Shown piece after piece: positions 32,478-58,708 of a DNA stretch of 64,000 nt. The notes beneath the pieces were generated by a model. That model saw nothing but the letters and a program-made list of their open reading frames with translations. It was not told where the DNA came from and searched no databases. This DNA is from Olivibacter jilunii (lineage in GTDB: Bacteria; Bacteroidota; Bacteroidia; Sphingobacteriales; Sphingobacteriaceae), in the NCBI RefSeq assembly GCF_900607235.1, contig NZ_LR027849.1:1-64000 (forward strand). Reading direction: 5' to 3'. Within the stretch, counting starts at the first letter, position 1; each line of letters begins with the position of its first letter. The position numbers were made by a program, and so were the translations under genes.

Positions 32478-32557
32478 GAACCAACAACCAATAACGAGTA
32501 ACCAATAACGAATAACCAATAACGAATAACCAATAACTAACAATCAACCAATAACCA
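32478..32557 (+). repeat. Heptad tandem array AAC(C/G)AAT, copy 1
   Basis: Alternating AACGAAT and AACCAAT units, preceded by TACATCGGAACCAACAACC, ending at the ATG of the DUF805 gene. A second array with the same lead-in precedes the HsdR-N-like gene (32961-33020). Confidence 0.75.
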
Positions 32558-32559
32558 AA

Positions 32560-32960: not shown

Positions 32961-33020
32961 TACATTGGAACAACCAATAACCAATAACGAATAACTAATA
33001 ACGAGTAACCAACAACCAAA
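32961..33020 (+). repeat. Heptad tandem array AAC(C/G)AAT, copy 2
   Basis: TACATTGGAACAACCAATAA followed by further AACGAAT/AACTAAT/AACGAGT units. Same lead-in and units as 32478-32557, here 100 bp before the HsdR-N-like gene. Confidence 0.7.
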
Positions 33021-51479: not shown

Positions 51480-51740
51480 TGTTTTTCCTACACAGTGCCG
51501 CCTCGCAGCTACTGCCCTTGTTTAATTGATCTCCGGCGCTTATCGCCGCGCCCGGCGTCCCTTGCTGCCGTACCGCTATAGCGTTCGCCTATAGAGGCTC
51601 TCCAGCACCTTCGGTATTCCCTTTAGCTAAGGCTTGCATGCCGGGGCGCCTTAGCTGGGTTCGGCACGCTGTTCTCGACAGCTGGCTTTCTACTGCGGGG
51701 GAACCGCAGGCTATGATCGAGGTACTCCCCGGTGCGATAT
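51480..51740. ncRNA. Chain of GC-rich hairpins, possible structured RNA or repeat element
   Basis: At least four stable stems in series: CTATAG/CTATAG around CGTTCGC (51576-51594), AGCTAAGGC/GCCTTAGCT (51625-51656, perfect 9 bp), GCTGT/ACAGC (51669-51683) and CTGCGG/CCGCAG (51693-51709). GC content is markedly above the surroundings, and no open frame makes sense. It lies upstream of the 80-aa/MauE/DUF6520 unit, so it could also be its leader (minus strand). Confidence 0.4.
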
Positions 51741-51870
51741 CTTATTTTAATTGTCTTTGGTAAAGGTAGTAGATCAGCAAGGAGGCTTATGCTGCCTAGG
51801 TAGCATTTGAAGCGGATCTAGGTAGCATTTTACTGTGATCTAAATCACAGCTTTGGGTTTCGCTCGTGCA
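51741..51870. other. Short region between hairpins and Crp gene
   Basis: Contains two near-identical GGTAGCATTT motifs (51798-51830, CTAGGTAGCATTTGAAG and CTAGGTAGCATTTTAC) 24 bases apart and the palindromic TGTGATCTAAATCACA at 51833-51848, which looks like a Crp/Fnr-type operator (TGTGA-N6-TCACA) directly downstream of the Crp gene end. Confidence 0.5.
51833..51848. promoter_or_regulatory. Crp/Fnr-like operator palindrome
   Basis: TGTGATCTAAATCACA, a perfect TGTGA-N6-TCACA inverted repeat, the E. coli CRP half-site architecture. It lies 23 bp from the stop of the Crp/Fnr-type gene at 51871 and upstream (in minus-strand sense) of the 80-aa/MauE/DUF6520 genes, so the regulator could control these. 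Confidence 0.55.
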
Positions 51871-52464
51871 TCAGCGAAGCTCTTTTAAACAGGTATTAAA
51901 AGTGCGCCGATCGATATGGAGGTAGTGTGCCAATAGTTCTTGCTTTACTTTACTATGTACGCCCGGGTAGCTACGTAAAAGGTAGGCGACGCGGTCGACC
52001 GCCGGATAACGTAAGGCAATGTTATGCATGGCCATTCGCCTGAGCCGCAAACTGTAAACACGGAGGAGAAGGGAGTTGAAGTTTGGGTAATCTTTCAACA
52101 AATGATGTAGTTTTGAATACGAAATGCCAATAAGTACGCCATCATCCCAGAGGTGAATACTTTCCTGTAGCTCCTTTCTTTCGAAAAAGCTTTCCGGTTG
52201 AAAAATGATATCGCCTTTTTTCCAAAGAAGTAGGGCCTGTTCTTGATCGGTATATTGATCGTATTTTACACTAACAGCAACACCTTGAACGAGATACCAT
52301 AGATAACCATCGCTATCATCGCCTTCAAACTCGATAACGCTCATCTTCGGTTGCCTAACTAGTTTCGATATCTGCAACAAACGACTGTGCAGCTCACCCG
52401 GAATGTACATTATGGAAGCGAGCCTATCCATAGCAACTTGAATGTATTTTCGTTTCTCTTGCAT
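51871..52464 (-). CDS. Crp/Fnr family transcriptional regulator
   Basis: 197 residues: beta-roll sensor in residues about 20-130 (SVIEFEGDDSDGYLWYLVQG, GDIIFQPESFFERKELQESI) and a short C-terminal HTH (LLAHYLHIDRRTFNTCLKEL). It starts at the ATG at 52464. A canonical TGTGA-N6-TCACA site lies just downstream of its stop, on the promoter side of the 80-aa/MauE operon, making these genes likely targets. Ligand unknown. Confidence 0.88.
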   Translation of the reverse strand: MQEKRKYIQVAMDRLASIMYIPGELHSRLLQISKLVRQPKMSVIEFEGDDSDGYLWYLVQGVAVSVKYDQYTDQEQALLLWKKGDIIFQPESFFERKELQESIHLWDDGVLIGISYSKLHHLLKDYPNFNSLLLRVYSLRLRRMAMHNIALRYPAVDRVAYLLRSYPGVHSKVKQELLAHYLHIDRRTFNTCLKELR

Positions 52465-52702
52465 AGCATCACTCTATGTTTATTATATTTTGAACAGGGA
52501 CTCCGTGTGAAATTTACGACCTTTATATCTGCTAAATACTCCAAAGCTATTGGAGATTTTATAAACCGATCTTTACCACAAATGCTATATTCATTTTTAC
52601 TTTGCTATACCGCATATAGCGAACAATTCATATACCTCACGATTGATACTTGATATATTTTACGCTCTTTTCAGAAAAGATCTGAGATCTTCCAATAAGT
52701 TA

Positions 52703-53614
52703 CTATACGGCCGAAGGTGAAAAACCGTGATATTTTTTAAACTGTACGGAAAAACTATGCTGATCAATATAGCCCACTTGTGGCAAAACCTCGTTTACGG
52801 GAACTCTTTCTTTTAACAGCTGTAAAGCTTTTTCCATCCGTTTGGCGGTAATATAGCTTTTGATCGTTGACCCATATGCTTCTTGAAATTTTCGTTGCAG
52901 GGTGCGCGCACTTCCTATAAACTGATCGGTGAGTTGTCGTACTTGCAAGTTTGGATTATGCAGGTTCTCGTCGATATAAATTTTCATCAATATAGGCGCT
53001 GATAGGGCAGGGCTACTTAATAAATTGGAAAGATCTTCATGATGTTGGCTCACCAACTGGAGAATGAGATGATTGATCTTATTGTTCAACTTGTTCTTGT
53101 CGTCGAGATTTAAATGAAATAAGGTCTCGATTGTCTTTCTTGTACGTGCGCGTATTTTTACGGCAGGTAATGATTTAATGCCTTGGAGATTTTTAATCAT
53201 GGCTTCAACTACCGGATAAATAGAGGGAAATAATAATTGATTATCTTCTTTATGTATTAAAATCTGCGGTTGAAACACGAGGGTAACTGCTTCCACTTCT
53301 CCCGGATAAACACGTAGCTTATAGTCGCCCTGATTGTGATACGTACAAAGACTTTCTCCGGCCTTTATGTCGTATTGTTCTTCTGCTTCCGTTTGCATGG
53401 CAATACGGCCGTCTAACATAAATAGCATAAAAAAGTGAGGGTACTTTACACGATATGAGCCGTTGCGCTCGATGTCATTGTGTGTTCGGTAGCGATGGCA
53501 TCGCGCATCCTGAAATACTCTGGATTGGTGTTCTACAGTCGGTCCGTTGGTACCTTTGGCTTGGTCATTCTTTTTTGGATTTTTGTTTTTTAATTGTGGT
53601 AAATCTTCTTCCAT
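52703..53614 (-). CDS. AraC family transcriptional regulator
   Basis: 303 residues. The N-terminal cupin-like domain (PHFFMLFMLDGRIAMQTEAE, KAGESLCTYHNQGDYKLRVY) is followed by an AraC domain with VRQLTDQFIGSARTLQRKFQ and VNEVLPQVGYIDQHSFSVQF, ending HGFSPSAV. The first 25 residues (KNKNPKKNDQAKGTNG) are lysine-rich. It lies alone between a Crp-like gene and the array region. Targets unknown. Confidence 0.9.
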   Translation of the reverse strand: MEEDLPQLKNKNPKKNDQAKGTNGPTVEHQSRVFQDARCHRYRTHNDIERNGSYRVKYPHFFMLFMLDGRIAMQTEAEEQYDIKAGESLCTYHNQGDYKLRVYPGEVEAVTLVFQPQILIHKEDNQLLFPSIYPVVEAMIKNLQGIKSLPAVKIRARTRKTIETLFHLNLDDKNKLNNKINHLILQLVSQHHEDLSNLLSSPALSAPILMKIYIDENLHNPNLQVRQLTDQFIGSARTLQRKFQEAYGSTIKSYITAKRMEKALQLLKERVPVNEVLPQVGYIDQHSFSVQFKKYHGFSPSAV

Positions 53615-53737
53615 GTCATGATGAATTTAAATTCATAATTGTTGATTAATTGTATTCGTAAAAATGCGGCATTCTATGCATGGTTAAAAGCAAAAAAGCG
53701 TCATTTTTTGAAAGTAAAAATAGGCCTTAAGAATTTT

Positions 53738-53768
53738 AAAAAATGGGTCACTGGCTGACCATTTTTTC
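53738..53768. terminator. Bidirectional terminator
   Basis: AAAAAATGG..TCA and TGA..CCATTTTTT with the loop CTGGC (53738-53768): symmetric, A-run in front and T-run behind. It can end minus-strand transcripts from the truncated gene at 54115 and separates them from the AraC gene. Confidence 0.7.
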
Positions 53769-53803
53769 TTAATTATTTTTCGTATGGAAGATGGAATTTT
53801 TTA

Positions 53804-53983
53804 AATCCCCTTTTTTGACACTAAAAGCTACTACGAACCTACTAAAAATACACTGAAACTTACTGGCTTCACACTGGTTTGACACTCATTTGGTACTGCC
53901 GTGACACTGGTTTAGCACTATTTTTACACTTGTTTCTTACTAGCTTGATTATACCTTGGTACTTGTTAAGCACTACAGAAGTG
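53804..53983. repeat. 11-bp-phased ACT array, copy 1
   Basis: The trinucleotide ACT recurs at 53820, 53830, 53841, 53852, 53862, 53873, 53884, 53895, 53906, 53917, 53928, 53939, (53950 as ATA), 53961 and 53972: steps of 11 bp with three of 10. Units look like GACACTGGTTT. The whole 180 bp recurs without gaps at 55629-55808 (roughly 90 % identical). Confidence 0.9.
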
Positions 53984-53996
53984 TGAATAGATATAG

Positions 53997-54086
53997 ACTT
54001 TCCTTACATCATGATTACCCTTTGTTTACCTTTCCTTTAGGTATGCTTTACCTTTTCTATACCCTTTCTTTACCTCTTGTTTACCC
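53997..54086. repeat. 11-bp-phased TTTAC array
   Basis: TTAC or close variants end at 54007, 54018, 54029, 54040 (TTAG), 54051, 54062 (TATAC), 54073 and 54084, exactly 11 bp apart each time; units look like CTTTCTTTAC. It follows the ACT array almost in phase but is absent from the second copy. Confidence 0.88.
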
Positions 54087-54114
54087 GGGAAGTATAGGAT
54101 GGGTAACAATAGTA

Positions 54115-54630
54115 CTATATTTTATCAGAATAGACCGCTTTTGCGGGATGTCCGTTTTCGAACAACCTTCCACGCGGATCAATATGCGATTCGTTAAATA
54201 GGATAACCTGATGCTTGTGGGCAATCGAATCGATTTCATCTACAGCATTCAGGGCCGTATAGTTGGAATCTTCCACAATGTCGGTGTCCCAATGCCTGGA
54301 ATTATTGTAGGCGGATTCATTTTCTTTTACATCGCCTGCAAATGAGCTGAAGGTGGTAAGCATGGTTCTATAACCGAAATATAGAGCTTGATCGGCTGAA
54401 TCAACCTTGATATGCCTGCTAAGGTAATAGGGGACTAAATAATTATAGCTACTCGTTTCATAGCTTTTTAGTATATGAGTCATTGGATCTTGCTGCGCTT
54501 TTTGAAGATATAAGGCAATTGAATCCTGTGTGAAATGTTCTATGTTTGATGTGGAGGGTTGTGCCATACAGATGTTTAATCCACAAAACGCCAGGAGGGT
54601 AAACAAAAGAGAGGAGCTGCTGATCTGCAT
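54115..54630 (-). pseudogene. Secreted erythromycin-esterase/ChaN-like protein, C-terminally truncated
   Basis: 171 codons with a signal peptide (about 23 residues, ending NICMAQ). The middle region (ALNAVDEIDSIAHKHQVILF) leads into NESHIDPRGRLFENGHP, the beginning of a ChaN/erythromycin-esterase-like catalytic motif (E-x-H). Proteins of this type continue for more than 200 further residues, but here the frame stops 15 codons later, right at the edge of the array. The missing part has been lost by deletion or array insertion, so this is likely non-functional. Confidence 0.65.
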
Positions 54631-54717
54631 AATCGAGGTATTAATCTAATGCAAATGTATAACTAAATTTTTAGTTTAAAAAAAATATTCTAATTTGTAG
54701 GTTTAAGGATCAATCAT

Positions 54718-55485
54718 CTACTCGATAGCAAAATATAGCGTTGCTTCCATTTTGAAATTAGTTATACTGCCCTCCGCGATTGCGGGTTTCCAGGGGAGAC
54801 TTTTAACCGCGGCTATAACAGCTTCTTCACAGCCGTAACCGATGCCTCTTCTGATACGGAAGTTGACTGGCTTTCCTTCCTTGCTGATTTCGAATGTGAC
54901 ACTGACAAGCCCTTCAATACCCTGATCCAAAGCTTCTTGTGGATAGATAACATGTTCTTTGAGGTGCTTTTGAAAACCTGGAATGCCACCAGCAGGTGTT
55001 GGCGGGAAATAGAATGAACAGTTAAATGCATTCATCACTTTTGTCTGATAAAGAACAGGTGATTTCGTTTTTTTGGCTTTAGCCTTACCATTGACTTGTA
55101 TGGTGTCTATCGTTTGGTTGCTATTGTCATTTATGGTTAGATTGATGATGCGGCTGCCCATCACAGGCACGGTTTGCCGAAAATATAGTCCCGTTATTTG
55201 GAGGGTATCGCCAGGCTCAATATATTCAATATGGTAATTTCCTAAACTGTCTGTAACGCTTTTAGGTGTCTCATCATAAAAATACTTTGTCGATCTAAGC
55301 CAAACCGTAATTCCTATTGCCGGCTCCCCATCGGGTGTGGTGAGTTTACCGCGTACATGGATCGTATCGGGTATTGAATATGTTTTGATAGTGTAATGTG
55401 CACTGTCTTTTCTGGAAATAAGCTGCGCTAGTGATGGCAAAGCTAAGGTCTGTAAGAAAGTAAAAAGTATAAATAGGATTTTCAT
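54718..55485 (-). CDS. TonB family energy-transducing protein with CarboxypepD_reg-like domain
   Basis: 255 residues: signal peptide (about 20 residues, ending SLAQ), a CarboxypepD_reg-like beta sandwich (VRGKLTTPDGEPAIGITVWL) and a TonB C-terminal domain (FQKHLKEHVIYPQEALDQGI, EGLVSVTFEISKEGKPVNFR and CEEAVIAAVKSLPWKPAI). It lacks the N-terminal membrane anchor of classical TonB, so it is probably a periplasmic, secreted relative rather than a true energy transducer. It stands between the truncated gene and the second array copy. Confidence 0.85.
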   Translation of the reverse strand: MKILFILFTFLQTLALPSLAQLISRKDSAHYTIKTYSIPDTIHVRGKLTTPDGEPAIGITVWLRSTKYFYDETPKSVTDSLGNYHIEYIEPGDTLQITGLYFRQTVPVMGSRIINLTINDNSNQTIDTIQVNGKAKAKKTKSPVLYQTKVMNAFNCSFYFPPTPAGGIPGFQKHLKEHVIYPQEALDQGIEGLVSVTFEISKEGKPVNFRIRRGIGYGCEEAVIAAVKSLPWKPAIAEGSITNFKMEATLYFAIE

Positions 55486-55628
55486 GGTGTGCTATTTATG
55501 GCTTTGATGCATAAATGAACCAATTTCCATAAGAACCGGATAGCAAAAGGAGCATTACACATTTTTACAATGACGGTTGGATACCAGAGTCTCTACCGGG
55601 AAGTTTTATTGCCAATGAAGGTTGTTGT

Positions 55629-55808
55629 AATCCCCTTTTTTGACACTAAAAGCTACTACAAACCTACTGAAACCACTCTGAAACCTACTGGCTTCACACA
55701 GGTTTGACACTCATTTGGTACTGCCGTGACACTGGTTTAGTACTATTTTCGCACTAGTTTCGTACTAGCTTGGTTATACCTTAGTACTTGTTAAGTACTA
55801 CAGAAGTG
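55629..55808. repeat. 11-bp-phased ACT array, copy 2
   Basis: ACT at 55645, 55655, 55666, 55687, 55709, 55720, 55731, 55742, 55753, 55764, 55786 and 55797; missing positions are mutated (ACA at 55698, ATA at 55775). Matches 53804-53983 base for base in register, offset 1825. Confidence 0.9.
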
Positions 55809-55838
55809 CGGGTTATAGACGAGCTGGTAATTGGTGAT

Positions 55839-55870
55839 AGCTAGCCGTGACCTGTACGGCTAGCTTTTTG
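55839..55870 (+). terminator. Hairpin with T-run after the second array copy
   Basis: AGCTAGCCGT (55839-55848) and ACGGCTAGCT (55856-55865), perfect 10-bp stem, followed by TTTTT on the plus strand. No plus-strand gene precedes it, so if it is a terminator it would end a transcript of the array itself. Confidence 0.6.
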
Positions 55871-55885
55871 GGAAGGTTGTTTGAC

Positions 55886-57118
55886 TTATTTGCCGTTTTT
55901 TTTCGATAAATTCCTGTAGCGCATAAGGGCTTCTACATAATAATAGTCAGCATATGATAAAGGCACATCCACTTCGCTATTGCCAGGTAAATTGCCCACG
56001 GAATGCTTCAAAAGAAAACCCCCATTAGTACCAATGGCTGCGCGGTATGTGGGTGAAGCAAGCTGTTGGATGATTTGCTCTGCAAAGTTGACATATTTGG
56101 CGGCCGTATCCTTCGGAGCGTAAGTGCTTAATTCCAGTAAAGCCGAAGCGCTTATTGCAGCCGCAGATGCATCCCGAGGGCTGTTGGGAATATCTTTTGC
56201 ATTATAGTCCCAGTACGGAATCTTATCCGATGGCAAGTTGGGGTGGTTCATTAAATAGGAAGCGATATGCATGGCTTGCTGTAGGTAAGCTTCGTGGCGG
56301 GTATCTCGGTACATCATGGTATAACCATATAAACCCCATGCTTGTCCACGGGCCCATGCAGATTCATCGAAAGCGCCCTGTGCGGTTTGTTTGTGCCGTA
56401 TTGCGCCCGTAGCGGGGGCGTAATCGACCACGTGATACGAACTGTTATCTTGACGGAAATGGTTTTTCAATGTGGTGTTTGCGTGTGTTCGGGCAATCTC
56501 AGCATAGCGTTCATTATTTGATACCCTATTTGCCCAGTTCAATAGTTCCAGGTTCATCATATTATCGATGATGACAGGAAATTCCCATTTATCTTGATGA
56601 TGATCCCAAGATCGGATGCAGCCTACCTGCGGGTTGAATCGGCTGATCAACGAAGTAGCTCCTTGGAGCAATACTTCTTGATAATGTGAATTTCCGGTGA
56701 GCCGCAAACCATTTCCAAAACTACAATAAAGCATAAAGCCCAGATCATGGGTACCCTTGTTATATTGTTCTTTTTCCAGGTCTTTCATCCGGCTCTCGGC
56801 TTCTTTCCTTAAGCTTTCATCTCCGCTGAACTCGTACAAATACCACAATGTGCCGGGATAGAATCCGGATATCCATGAGTTACTTTTACTAACCAACAGA
56901 CTATCGTGTTCGTAAGTGCGAGGAAATACGCCTTTTGGTAGGTGCTGCCGAAGCGTTTTGTACTGGGTTACGGCTTGGCTTAGTTGCTCGTTAATGAACG
57001 CCTGATTGAGCTTGTATCCGTACGACTTGTTTGTTTGTCCATTAAGGGGTGCAAATCCTGCCAACAGAATAAAGAGCAAATAAATACTGCTTTGGAGCGT
57101 GTTTTTTGATGTTAACAT
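55886..57118 (-). CDS. GH88 family unsaturated glucuronyl/rhamnogalacturonyl hydrolase
   Basis: 410 residues with signal peptide (about 27 residues, ending LNGQ). The alpha/alpha-barrel motifs of GH88/GH105 are visible: SWISGFYPGTLWYLYEFSGD (about 62-81), FPVIIDNMMNLELLNWANRV with the catalytic aspartate (about 180-199), AFDESAWARGQAWGLYGYTM and VPLSYADYYYVEALMRY. The enzyme removes 4,5-unsaturated uronic acids from oligosaccharides released by polysaccharide lyases. Last gene of the PUL here, downstream of the permease. Confidence 0.92.
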   Translation of the reverse strand: MLTSKNTLQSSIYLLFILLAGFAPLNGQTNKSYGYKLNQAFINEQLSQAVTQYKTLRQHLPKGVFPRTYEHDSLLVSKSNSWISGFYPGTLWYLYEFSGDESLRKEAESRMKDLEKEQYNKGTHDLGFMLYCSFGNGLRLTGNSHYQEVLLQGATSLISRFNPQVGCIRSWDHHQDKWEFPVIIDNMMNLELLNWANRVSNNERYAEIARTHANTTLKNHFRQDNSSYHVVDYAPATGAIRHKQTAQGAFDESAWARGQAWGLYGYTMMYRDTRHEAYLQQAMHIASYLMNHPNLPSDKIPYWDYNAKDIPNSPRDASAAAISASALLELSTYAPKDTAAKYVNFAEQIIQQLASPTYRAAIGTNGGFLLKHSVGNLPGNSEVDVPLSYADYYYVEALMRYRNLSKKNGK

Positions 57119-57154
57119 ATGCTTGATTTTTGTTAAAGGGATTCATGATGAATT

Positions 57155-58708
57155 TTAAGGTGTTGCATAACTGTCTAATACGGGGATCATATTTTTAAAA
57201 ACGTATGCCTGTAACAACACGATAAGGCAGATAATCCCTAATAGTATAAAACTGTGTTTGAGTGTATAGCGCAATAAATGTGATTCGCTACCGGTTAAAC
57301 CACTGCCTGCCGCTGCTACGGCGATAGATTGTGGGGAAATCATTTTACCTAAGACACCTCCGGAAGCATTGGCGGCTACCATGGTGAGTGGATTAAGCCC
57401 GATACGCTGGGCTGTTTCAAACTGTAATTTGCCGAACAGTGCATTGGAGGAAGTGTCAGAGCCGGTTATAAAGACCCCGAGCCAACCGAGTATTGGTGCG
57501 AAAAGTGGATAAAGCGCACCGGTATTAGCCATGGCAGCTGCTAAGGTTAGGGTAATACCTGCATCATTCAGCAGGTAGGCAAAGCCCATGATCGTAGCAA
57601 TGGTGAGTATGGCATAGCGGAGCTGTTTAAGGGTCTTGCCGTAAATGCCGGCTGCTTTTAGGAAGGAGAGTCCGGTAAGTGGTATCGAACATAGAGCGGC
57701 TAACAGAATAGCCGTACCTGGAGTGGAAAGGTAGGGAATAGGCACCTCTGTTAAACCGATGTTGATTTTGGCTTGCGCCCACTCATCGAACGCTCGTTTT
57801 AATGTGGGTATGCCCCAGAGTATAATGAATAGCGTAAGTAGTAAAAACGGACTGAAAGCGCGGAGTACGCCACCTTCTGCTTGCTCTTTTTCTGTTGATA
57901 TCTTGCGGAAGCGCAAGTAGCCCCATAGGGCAAGCAAGGAGCCGAGCCCTGCGATGATATCGGGCAGCGTGGGGCCAATGAAACTGGCGGAGAACCATTG
58001 CAACAAAGCAAAAGAGCCACCCGAAACGAGCAGTGCGGGAAGTATGGCTACCATCTGCTTCCAACCGGCCAAGGTGATGATGAGATACATGGGCATCATC
58101 AAAGATAGAAAGGGTAAAGTGCGCCCGACAGTCTGCGATATGGCCATCTCCGGTAAACCGGAGATATCGGCCAAAACGGTAATGGGGATACCTACGGCGC
58201 CAAAGGCTACCGGCGCCGTATTGGCAATCAGGCAAATGCCGGCAGCTTGTAAGGGTTGGAAGCCCAGACCTACTAACATGGCTGCCGTAATGGCTACGGG
58301 TGCACCATAGCCGGCAGTGCCTTCTAGGAACGCGCCGAAAGAAAAGGCTACCAGTAGTACCTGTAAACGCGGATCGGGCGTGATAGCGGCAATGTACTGT
58401 TTGATTGTCTTGAATTGACCACTTTCTACGCTCAGATTAAAAAGAAATAGCGTGTTGATTACTATCCAAGATATAGGAAATAAACCATAGAGCATACCGC
58501 GGACACTGGAAAAAGCAATCGTTTGCATCGGTACATGAAAGACGCTATAAGCTATTAAACAGGCAAATGCAAGAGCGAATAGGCTTGCCCAATGTCCTTT
58601 CCATTTAGCAAATACCAGTGCCCAGAATATCGCGAGTATGGGCAGGGCCGCAGCTCCTACCTGTACCAGCTTCCAGACATTACTGTTTGTAAAAAGACTA
58701 CAGATCAT
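57155..58708 (-). CDS. L-lactate permease family (LctP) transporter
   Basis: 517 residues with about 12-13 membrane helices. Family segments: FSFGAFLEGTAGYGAPVAIT (about 125-144), CLIANTAPVAFGAVGIPITV, GWLGVFITGSDTSSNALFGK and VVAANASGGVLGKMISPQSI, all diagnostic for LctP. These carriers import L-lactate or glycolate with protons. In this locus it may instead carry a hydroxy-acid sugar product, an inference. It overlaps the BNR_4 gene by 4 bp (ATGA), hence one transcript. Confidence 0.93.
   Translation of the reverse strand: MICSLFTNSNVWKLVQVGAAALPILAIFWALVFAKWKGHWASLFALAFACLIAYSVFHVPMQTIAFSSVRGMLYGLFPISWIVINTLFLFNLSVESGQFKTIKQYIAAITPDPRLQVLLVAFSFGAFLEGTAGYGAPVAITAAMLVGLGFQPLQAAGICLIANTAPVAFGAVGIPITVLADISGLPEMAISQTVGRTLPFLSLMMPMYLIITLAGWKQMVAILPALLVSGGSFALLQWFSASFIGPTLPDIIAGLGSLLALWGYLRFRKISTEKEQAEGGVLRAFSPFLLLTLFIILWGIPTLKRAFDEWAQAKINIGLTEVPIPYLSTPGTAILLAALCSIPLTGLSFLKAAGIYGKTLKQLRYAILTIATIMGFAYLLNDAGITLTLAAAMANTGALYPLFAPILGWLGVFITGSDTSSNALFGKLQFETAQRIGLNPLTMVAANASGGVLGKMISPQSIAVAAAGSGLTGSESHLLRYTLKHSFILLGIICLIVLLQAYVFKNMIPVLDSYATP

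Follow-up and report, generated by a model that had tools for sequence, protein, structure and literature searches.

Repeats of the REP and MITE type are short, intergenic and dispersed, and they can be present in one species and absent from another. Rows of direct repeats that are read by a protein provide a second point of reference, and two such systems come close to the arrays described here. BldC, a MerR-like winged-helix protein of Streptomyces, binds direct repeats head to tail, and its filaments are reported to place one DNA turn between molecules on a long operator (PMC5859096, PMC11963761). The BldC repeats are 9 bp long, AATTXXXX(C), and number two to four in the examples. The parC site of plasmid R1 consists of 11-bp direct repeats upstream of its operon, and ParR of R1 is reported to require at least two of these repeats (PMC9426499). 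Like BldC operators, the arrays that we describe are rows of direct repeats in variable number, but they hold 8–15 units of 11 bp, and the unit differs from locus to locus. Like parC, they are made of direct repeats of 11 bp and occupy an upstream region, but they are chromosomal, occur at many loci with many units per genome, and have recurrent neighbours without ParM or ParR. Their short, intergenic, dispersed and variably present character recalls REP and MITE sequences, from which they differ in their 11-bp units, their conserved core, their tie to a gene superfamily and their persistence at some orthologous places. To our knowledge, no system has gene-linked arrays of one-turn units together with further arrays of the same unit elsewhere. 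As far as defining features could be compared, the system as a whole matches no known family; its presumed mode of binding has parallels.

The window, a stretch of 64,000 nucleotides from Olivibacter jilunii (genome G000 in what follows), carries two adjacent arrays on the forward strand. Array A (53804..53983, +) is an element of about 180 bp, its limits taken from the match to a second copy, with 15 slots of about 11 bp and an ACT core. ACT occurs at 53820, 53830, 53841, 53852 and 53862, then every 11 bp to 53939, and again at 53961 and 53972; there are thus 14 ACTs in 15 slots, with two steps of 10 bp and the rest of 11. The original prediction, ACT at 11-bp and occasionally 10-bp steps for 15 units between 53820 and 53972, holds for the spacing and the number of slots but not for the odd slot near 53950, which reads TAT. 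Array B (54000..54088, +) has 8 units of 11 bp with a T(T/A)AC-type core. The description of this array as eight units of TTTAC spaced exactly 11 bp apart (54007–54084) was too strong, since exact TTTAC is found in 4 of the 8 (at 54025, 54047, 54069 and 54080), but the phase is indeed held across all eight. Autocorrelation gave the expected 11-bp excess over dinucleotide shuffles in both arrays: lag-11 identity was 0.489 against a shuffle mean of 0.266 for array A (z 6.2) and 0.625 against 0.323 for array B (z 6.1), and 0 of 2000 shuffles scored as high in either. Identity at lags 22 and 33 was likewise raised in A and B, with 3 of 2000 shuffles matching array A at lag 33.

A second copy of array A, absent from the earlier account, lies at 55629..55808 (+) and is 92% identical. 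These two copies were the only non-coding arrays of period 11 in an unbiased scan of 1.164 Mb of G000 that included the window; the other non-coding periods recovered were 5 (1), 6 (1), 7 (18), 8 (11), 10 (1), 21 (2) and 39 (1). At a laxer score of 0.46, a scan of 1.184 Mb of the same genome returned 14 non-coding stretches of period 11, many of them AT-rich, and 3–7 at periods 9, 10, 12 and 13; at a score of 0.50 there were three period-11 stretches, all within the window. Two diverged 7-bp arrays with the unit AACCAAT were also seen in the window, at 32479–32558 and 32972–33019. Elsewhere in G000 (L094:11861–11963) there is a weak period-11 array whose unit is like GGTGAGTCCAG and resembles that of an array of G091 in L036.

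Array A lies about 190 bp upstream of the start of an AraC-type regulator gene (52703..53614, −), and its second copy about 145 bp upstream of the start of a gene for a TonB C-terminal-domain protein (PF03544; 54718..55485, −). Between array B and the latter gene is a 171-aa ORF (54115..54630, −), a fragment of a protein of about 430 aa whose residues 1–158/159 it matches; the full frames in G003, a congener, and G004 are 430 and 437 aa. The cut end of this ORF is about 65 bp from array B. In G003 the order is TonB C-terminal-domain gene, about 10 bp, array A, then the AraC gene, and 20 bp of G003 stand in place of 753 bp of the window that contain array B and the 171-aa ORF. In G004, the homology that precedes the AraC gene stops at about 53816, where array A has its left edge, and the place carries no array.

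Matches to array A were found in 2 of 60 genomes, its own included, at three places in G000 and five in G003. The third G000 copy, at G000:C3:640314, is 77% identical and has no counterpart in the orthologous gap of either G004 or G002. A 10-bp direct repeat flanks this copy, one of the seven examined; no comparable repeat was found at the other six, the nearest being of 8 bp at L009. Absence from orthologous gaps and the differences around the window locus suggest that such arrays come and go. The copies are collinear, with their first units alike and, in most, a TTATACC-like slot near the end. The idea of a mobile array thus draws partial support from dispersed collinear copies and from the empty orthologous gap.

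Comparison of the copies indicated which positions are held. Variation across the seven longer copies is 2–9% at the three positions of the core and 17–31% at the remaining eight. In three non-overlapping pairs (six copies), differences fell on 13 of 135 ACT core positions vs 109 of 354 others (Fisher p ~4e-7); the core count omits L011, with 48 bp only, and the three summed contrasts omit the copy at 55629..55808. That the core differs far less than the rest makes the motif look selected, and sparing of one phase would not be expected from neutral decay. The claim of selection was borne out in this form, for the motif, by conservation of ACT between homologous copies. The accompanying argument, that decay of a tandem duplication does not leave the phase intact, is weak by itself, because substitutions without indels would keep the phase.

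The 11-bp period recurs in relatives. A five-unit YACT pattern matched 10 of 150 genomes, and in these the period stays at 11 and the units differ, for example TACTAGACGTA in G008 and G071 and CACTGTTCAAC in G020. The reversed control pattern was present in 3 of 150 (G105, G067 and G091), which makes G067 and G091 doubtful, as both are among the ten. With a six-unit pattern in a named genome collection, 48 of 80 loci among the matches listed were Bacteroidota by title, a raw count without a base rate by phylum, and 61 of 80 among the matches listed were non-coding; several arrays from other phyla among them were near-exact tandem repeats. In the search of relatives, arrays with other units were found more widely than array A itself, which among the 60 genomes was seen in G000 and G003 only; the absence of similar arrays from all relatives, named beforehand as a refutation, was thus not observed. 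Judged from unit sequence, intrinsic curvature, one of the proposals made at the outset, appears a poor explanation: the conserved core is ACT, and units without A-tracts, such as TACTAGACGTA, hold the same period in relatives. Instead, the candidate sites, their conserved core and the recurring period would best be read as an array of binding sites, as had also been proposed. Of the arrays recovered by pattern, 27 lie in tandem, 6 in convergent and 4 in divergent gaps, vs 2465, 635 and 839 for random places, a distribution that gives no support to a general role at promoters.

Several of these arrays have unusual surroundings. In G008, the arrays of TACTAGACGTA units at L163, L164, L165, L171 and L173 stop about 100 bp from contig ends, and three of them (L039, L054 and L057) run into one shared sequence, as if an insertion-sequence-like repeat adjoins them. 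In G071, a sequence of about 397 bp is present in three tandem copies at L053:1–1100, and every copy contains an 11-bp array as well as CTTCGACTGCGCTCAG-like pieces.

Small proteins of similar appearance recurred as neighbours of the arrays. They include DUF6266 (PF19781), which we take to be a family without an assigned function, and two look-alike families. Upstream of DUF6266 genes (500 bp, periods 5–20), the best period was 11 in 47 of 70 and 10 in 11 of 70, and 23 of the 70 had a best period other than 11. The 70 are a selection from more than 150 places, mostly first genes of tandem pairs; when genes were weighted by protein cluster (53 clusters at 60% identity), the fraction with best period 11 was 0.67. 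The period-11 score reached at least 0.45 in 45 of 70 and at least 0.5 in 27 of 70, and control ORFs, drawn from random stretches of two genomes (G000 and G002), had best period 11 in 51 of 835, with 9 scoring at least 0.45 and 0 at least 0.5. Other ORFs inside the DUF6266 loci, some of which share one gap, reached these scores in 10 and 7 of 146. One DUF6266 gene, L316/L383, is counted once among the 70 and twice in the first, folding and HTH_17 counts. The two look-alike families behaved in a similar way, with 10 of 19 and 6 of 10 genes, counts that omit loci that were partial, weak or close to the end of a contig (11 of 30 for the LIKLEG type, 20 of 30 for the VLFRQ type), and look-alike genes were present in 6 of 119 loci fetched solely by the DNA pattern. 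From array end to start codon the distance has a median of 148 bp, with quartiles of 119 and 213 (DUF6266, score at least 0.45). No paper on DUF6266 by name was found in one open-access library, nor, with a limited set of terms in the same kind of search, one on such arrays.

Unlike these DUF6266-linked arrays, which have the gene downstream, arrays A and B in the window are orphans without a linked DUF6266-type gene nearby: an HMM search at E 10 found no such gene or remnant in 51501–57500. Their relatives are linked to such genes elsewhere. Array B matches an array at G000:C1:1257956 (75% over 75 bp), which is flanked by an HTH_17-like gene and a DUF6266 gene (G000:C1:1258310), so that B shares its unit with a gene-linked array. 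For array A, the match lies at G003:C110 (68% over 111 bp), in an array that precedes a look-alike gene; G000 has no detectable copy of this A-linked gene, though it carries A at three places. The flanking genes of G000:C1:1257956 and G003:C110 are similar, which suggests that at this site neither the gene nor the unit is shared by the two congeners. In G002, the array that precedes the DUF6266 gene at C1:838973 shares its unit with an orphan at C1:1168265 (84% over 79 bp), between convergent glyA (SHMT) and phosphoribosyltransferase genes, and G004 has a weaker match at the orthologous place (38 bp, E 0.0014).

In G000, G002 and G003 alike, the unit ACGRTAAATTT is found in an array before a DUF6266 gene and in a further two or three orphans, and an orphan upstream of ybeY holds an orthologous place in these three species. 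G004 has two ACGAT arrays, which look like copies of one repeat, and the regions upstream of DUF6266 genes that were read in that genome, five in number, do not show the ACGAT unit. Across all 12 arrays read, the ratio of ACGGT to ACGAT is 1:22 in G000, 14:8 in G002, 11:4 in G003 and 2:12 in G004. At the ybeY place alone it is 0:5 vs 8:3 (p 0.026, with the grouping of genomes chosen post hoc); such p-values are rough, because sites in one array are not independent. For 7 of the 10 ACGRTAAATTT arrays compared, the best BLAST partner lies in another genome, suggesting that simple copying does not explain the shared core letter. A core letter that differs between genomes fits a trans-acting reader with a preference that varies in the same way. 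Arrays without a linked gene would mean either that the linked protein is not the sole reader or that genes were lost before arrays.

Taken together, the arrays, their conserved core, the association with one gene superfamily, the same-unit orphans and the core letter that varies between genomes lead us to hypothesize, with a probability of about 0.5, that the arrays offer about one site per helical turn to a DNA-binding protein acting in trans, and that they form part of DUF6266-superfamily systems, the linked protein being the first candidate for the binder. A sequence-specific DNA-binding protein would occupy each array at about one site per turn, its molecules probably side by side. A gene of the superfamily (PF19781 and the two look-alike families) would usually have an array of its own unit about 100–300 bp upstream, and further orphans of that unit could occur elsewhere in the genome. 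Autoregulation would be the simplest role for the gene-linked array, and regulation, anchoring or titration are candidate roles for the orphans. The DUF6266-type protein itself may bind through its basic N-terminal part: in 68, 17 and 10 proteins of DUF6266 and the look-alikes, the first 80 residues have a median pI of 10.3–10.7 and the last 100 one of 4.3–4.6. A nucleic-acid-binding N-terminus that reads the array one site per turn would be the simplest model. The AF2 model of a VLFRQ-type look-alike (4 sequences; mean pLDDT 65.8, below 50 to residue 39) has a beta-rich C-terminal half and leaves the N-terminus unresolved; its best PDB matches are generic and Ig-like, none at E <= 0.001. The LIKLEG-type model is poor (pLDDT 52.2). 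Against this explanation stand the arrays of A and of ACGAT that are kept in G000 and G004 with no linked gene detected, the lack of concentration at promoters, the G002 orphan between convergent genes, and the 23 of 70 DUF6266 genes with another best period.

A different binder would account for much of the same evidence. On this alternative, which we consider unlikely while granting it a real chance, a small winged-helix HTH_17 protein, BldC-like or excisionase-like and often encoded just upstream, would sit head to tail on the array at about one turn each, and DUF6266 would be its target. The one-turn spacing of BldC filaments lends it a precedent, HTH_17 proteins at syntenic L014 (unit B) and L160 (unit A) differ in their helix-turn-helix region, and HTH_17 matches numbered 29 in 72 DUF6266 loci (357 kb) vs 1 in 60 controls (1.2 Mb), with an HMM seeded in those loci. 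Yet the frequency of arrays is the same whether an HTH_17 gene lies nearby (17 of 24) or not (33 of 47), in flanks of 1.5–4 kb that would miss distant genes, and HTH_17 as a necessary partner was rejected on this ground. No HTH_17 gene lies beside the window arrays. It is less probable, though not negligibly so, that no reader exists and that the arrays are dispersed selfish repeats, MITE-like or REP-like, which spread from positions close to DUF6266-type genes and share units by copying. Collinear copies of A, the G000 array with its 10-bp direct repeat that is missing from the orthologous gap, and the G008 arrays that stop near contig ends all suit this picture; conservation of the core in diverged copies, orthologous orphans in three species, a core letter common within a genome despite best partners in another, and the six A copies without a comparable direct repeat all speak against it.

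The remaining explanations are improbable to differing degrees. Action of the array as RNA, within a leader transcript that folds or is bound by protein, would fit the inverted repeats in some arrays and the folding z below −3 in 11 of 49 arrays (one gene counted twice) vs 3 of 55 controls, with L389 reaching −11, but the medians are −0.73 and −0.33, array orientation towards genes is mixed, and folding in the window was no better than shuffles (A +1.2/+1.6, B −0.95/−0.75, the A copy −1.0/−2.5); with 0 Rfam matches at the gathering threshold in the window and neither A nor B among the unusual folders, an RNA element was set aside as improbable. Functionless tandem repeats, made by slippage and still in phase for lack of indels, have company in the many other diverged non-coding arrays of G000 at periods 7 and 8. 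We nonetheless judge decay of this kind very improbable, because substitutions avoid the ACT core, the unit recurs elsewhere in the same genome, and the tie to one gene superfamily extends across many genera. Least credible is a centromere-like partition site after the pattern of parC, for which the 11-bp repeats and their position upstream of an operon would speak: no ParM/ParR pair appeared among the recurrent neighbours of DUF6266 loci that were examined or among the window ORFs scanned, and the arrays occupy many chromosomal loci with units that differ within a genome.

Returning to a binder encoded within DUF6266-superfamily systems, a bolder form of this reading, which we put forward tentatively and with more doubt than confidence, is that units act as private addresses. 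Each DUF6266-superfamily protein would then be a new DNA-binder of its own one-turn unit, at its own gene and at a few orphans. Such systems would, with similar reservation, extend across Bacteroidota, reader and unit diverging together, with many mutually blind systems per genome. If unit and protein do diverge together, they would form a natural set of separate protein–DNA pairs for studying the evolution of specificity. More generally, DUF6266 gains a testable function through a recognisable cis element, target sites become predictable for each genome, and the link may account for a class of odd intergenic arrays.

Origin from a phage or plasmid was considered and rejected. The window stretch has no DNA match in phage and plasmid collections, and three query proteins had no PHROG match and no viral-contig relative in a search for close relatives. 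The cluster around DUF6266 nevertheless resembles a lysis-type or phage-derived cassette. Recurrent neighbours of DUF6266 genes are an HTH_17 gene upstream, a second DUF6266 gene, DUF5675, a protein of about 120 aa without a Pfam match and, downstream, a CHAP-domain protein, and in L405, L406 and L415 they form clusters of HTH_17, two DUF6266 genes, the ~120-aa protein and CHAP or DUF5675.
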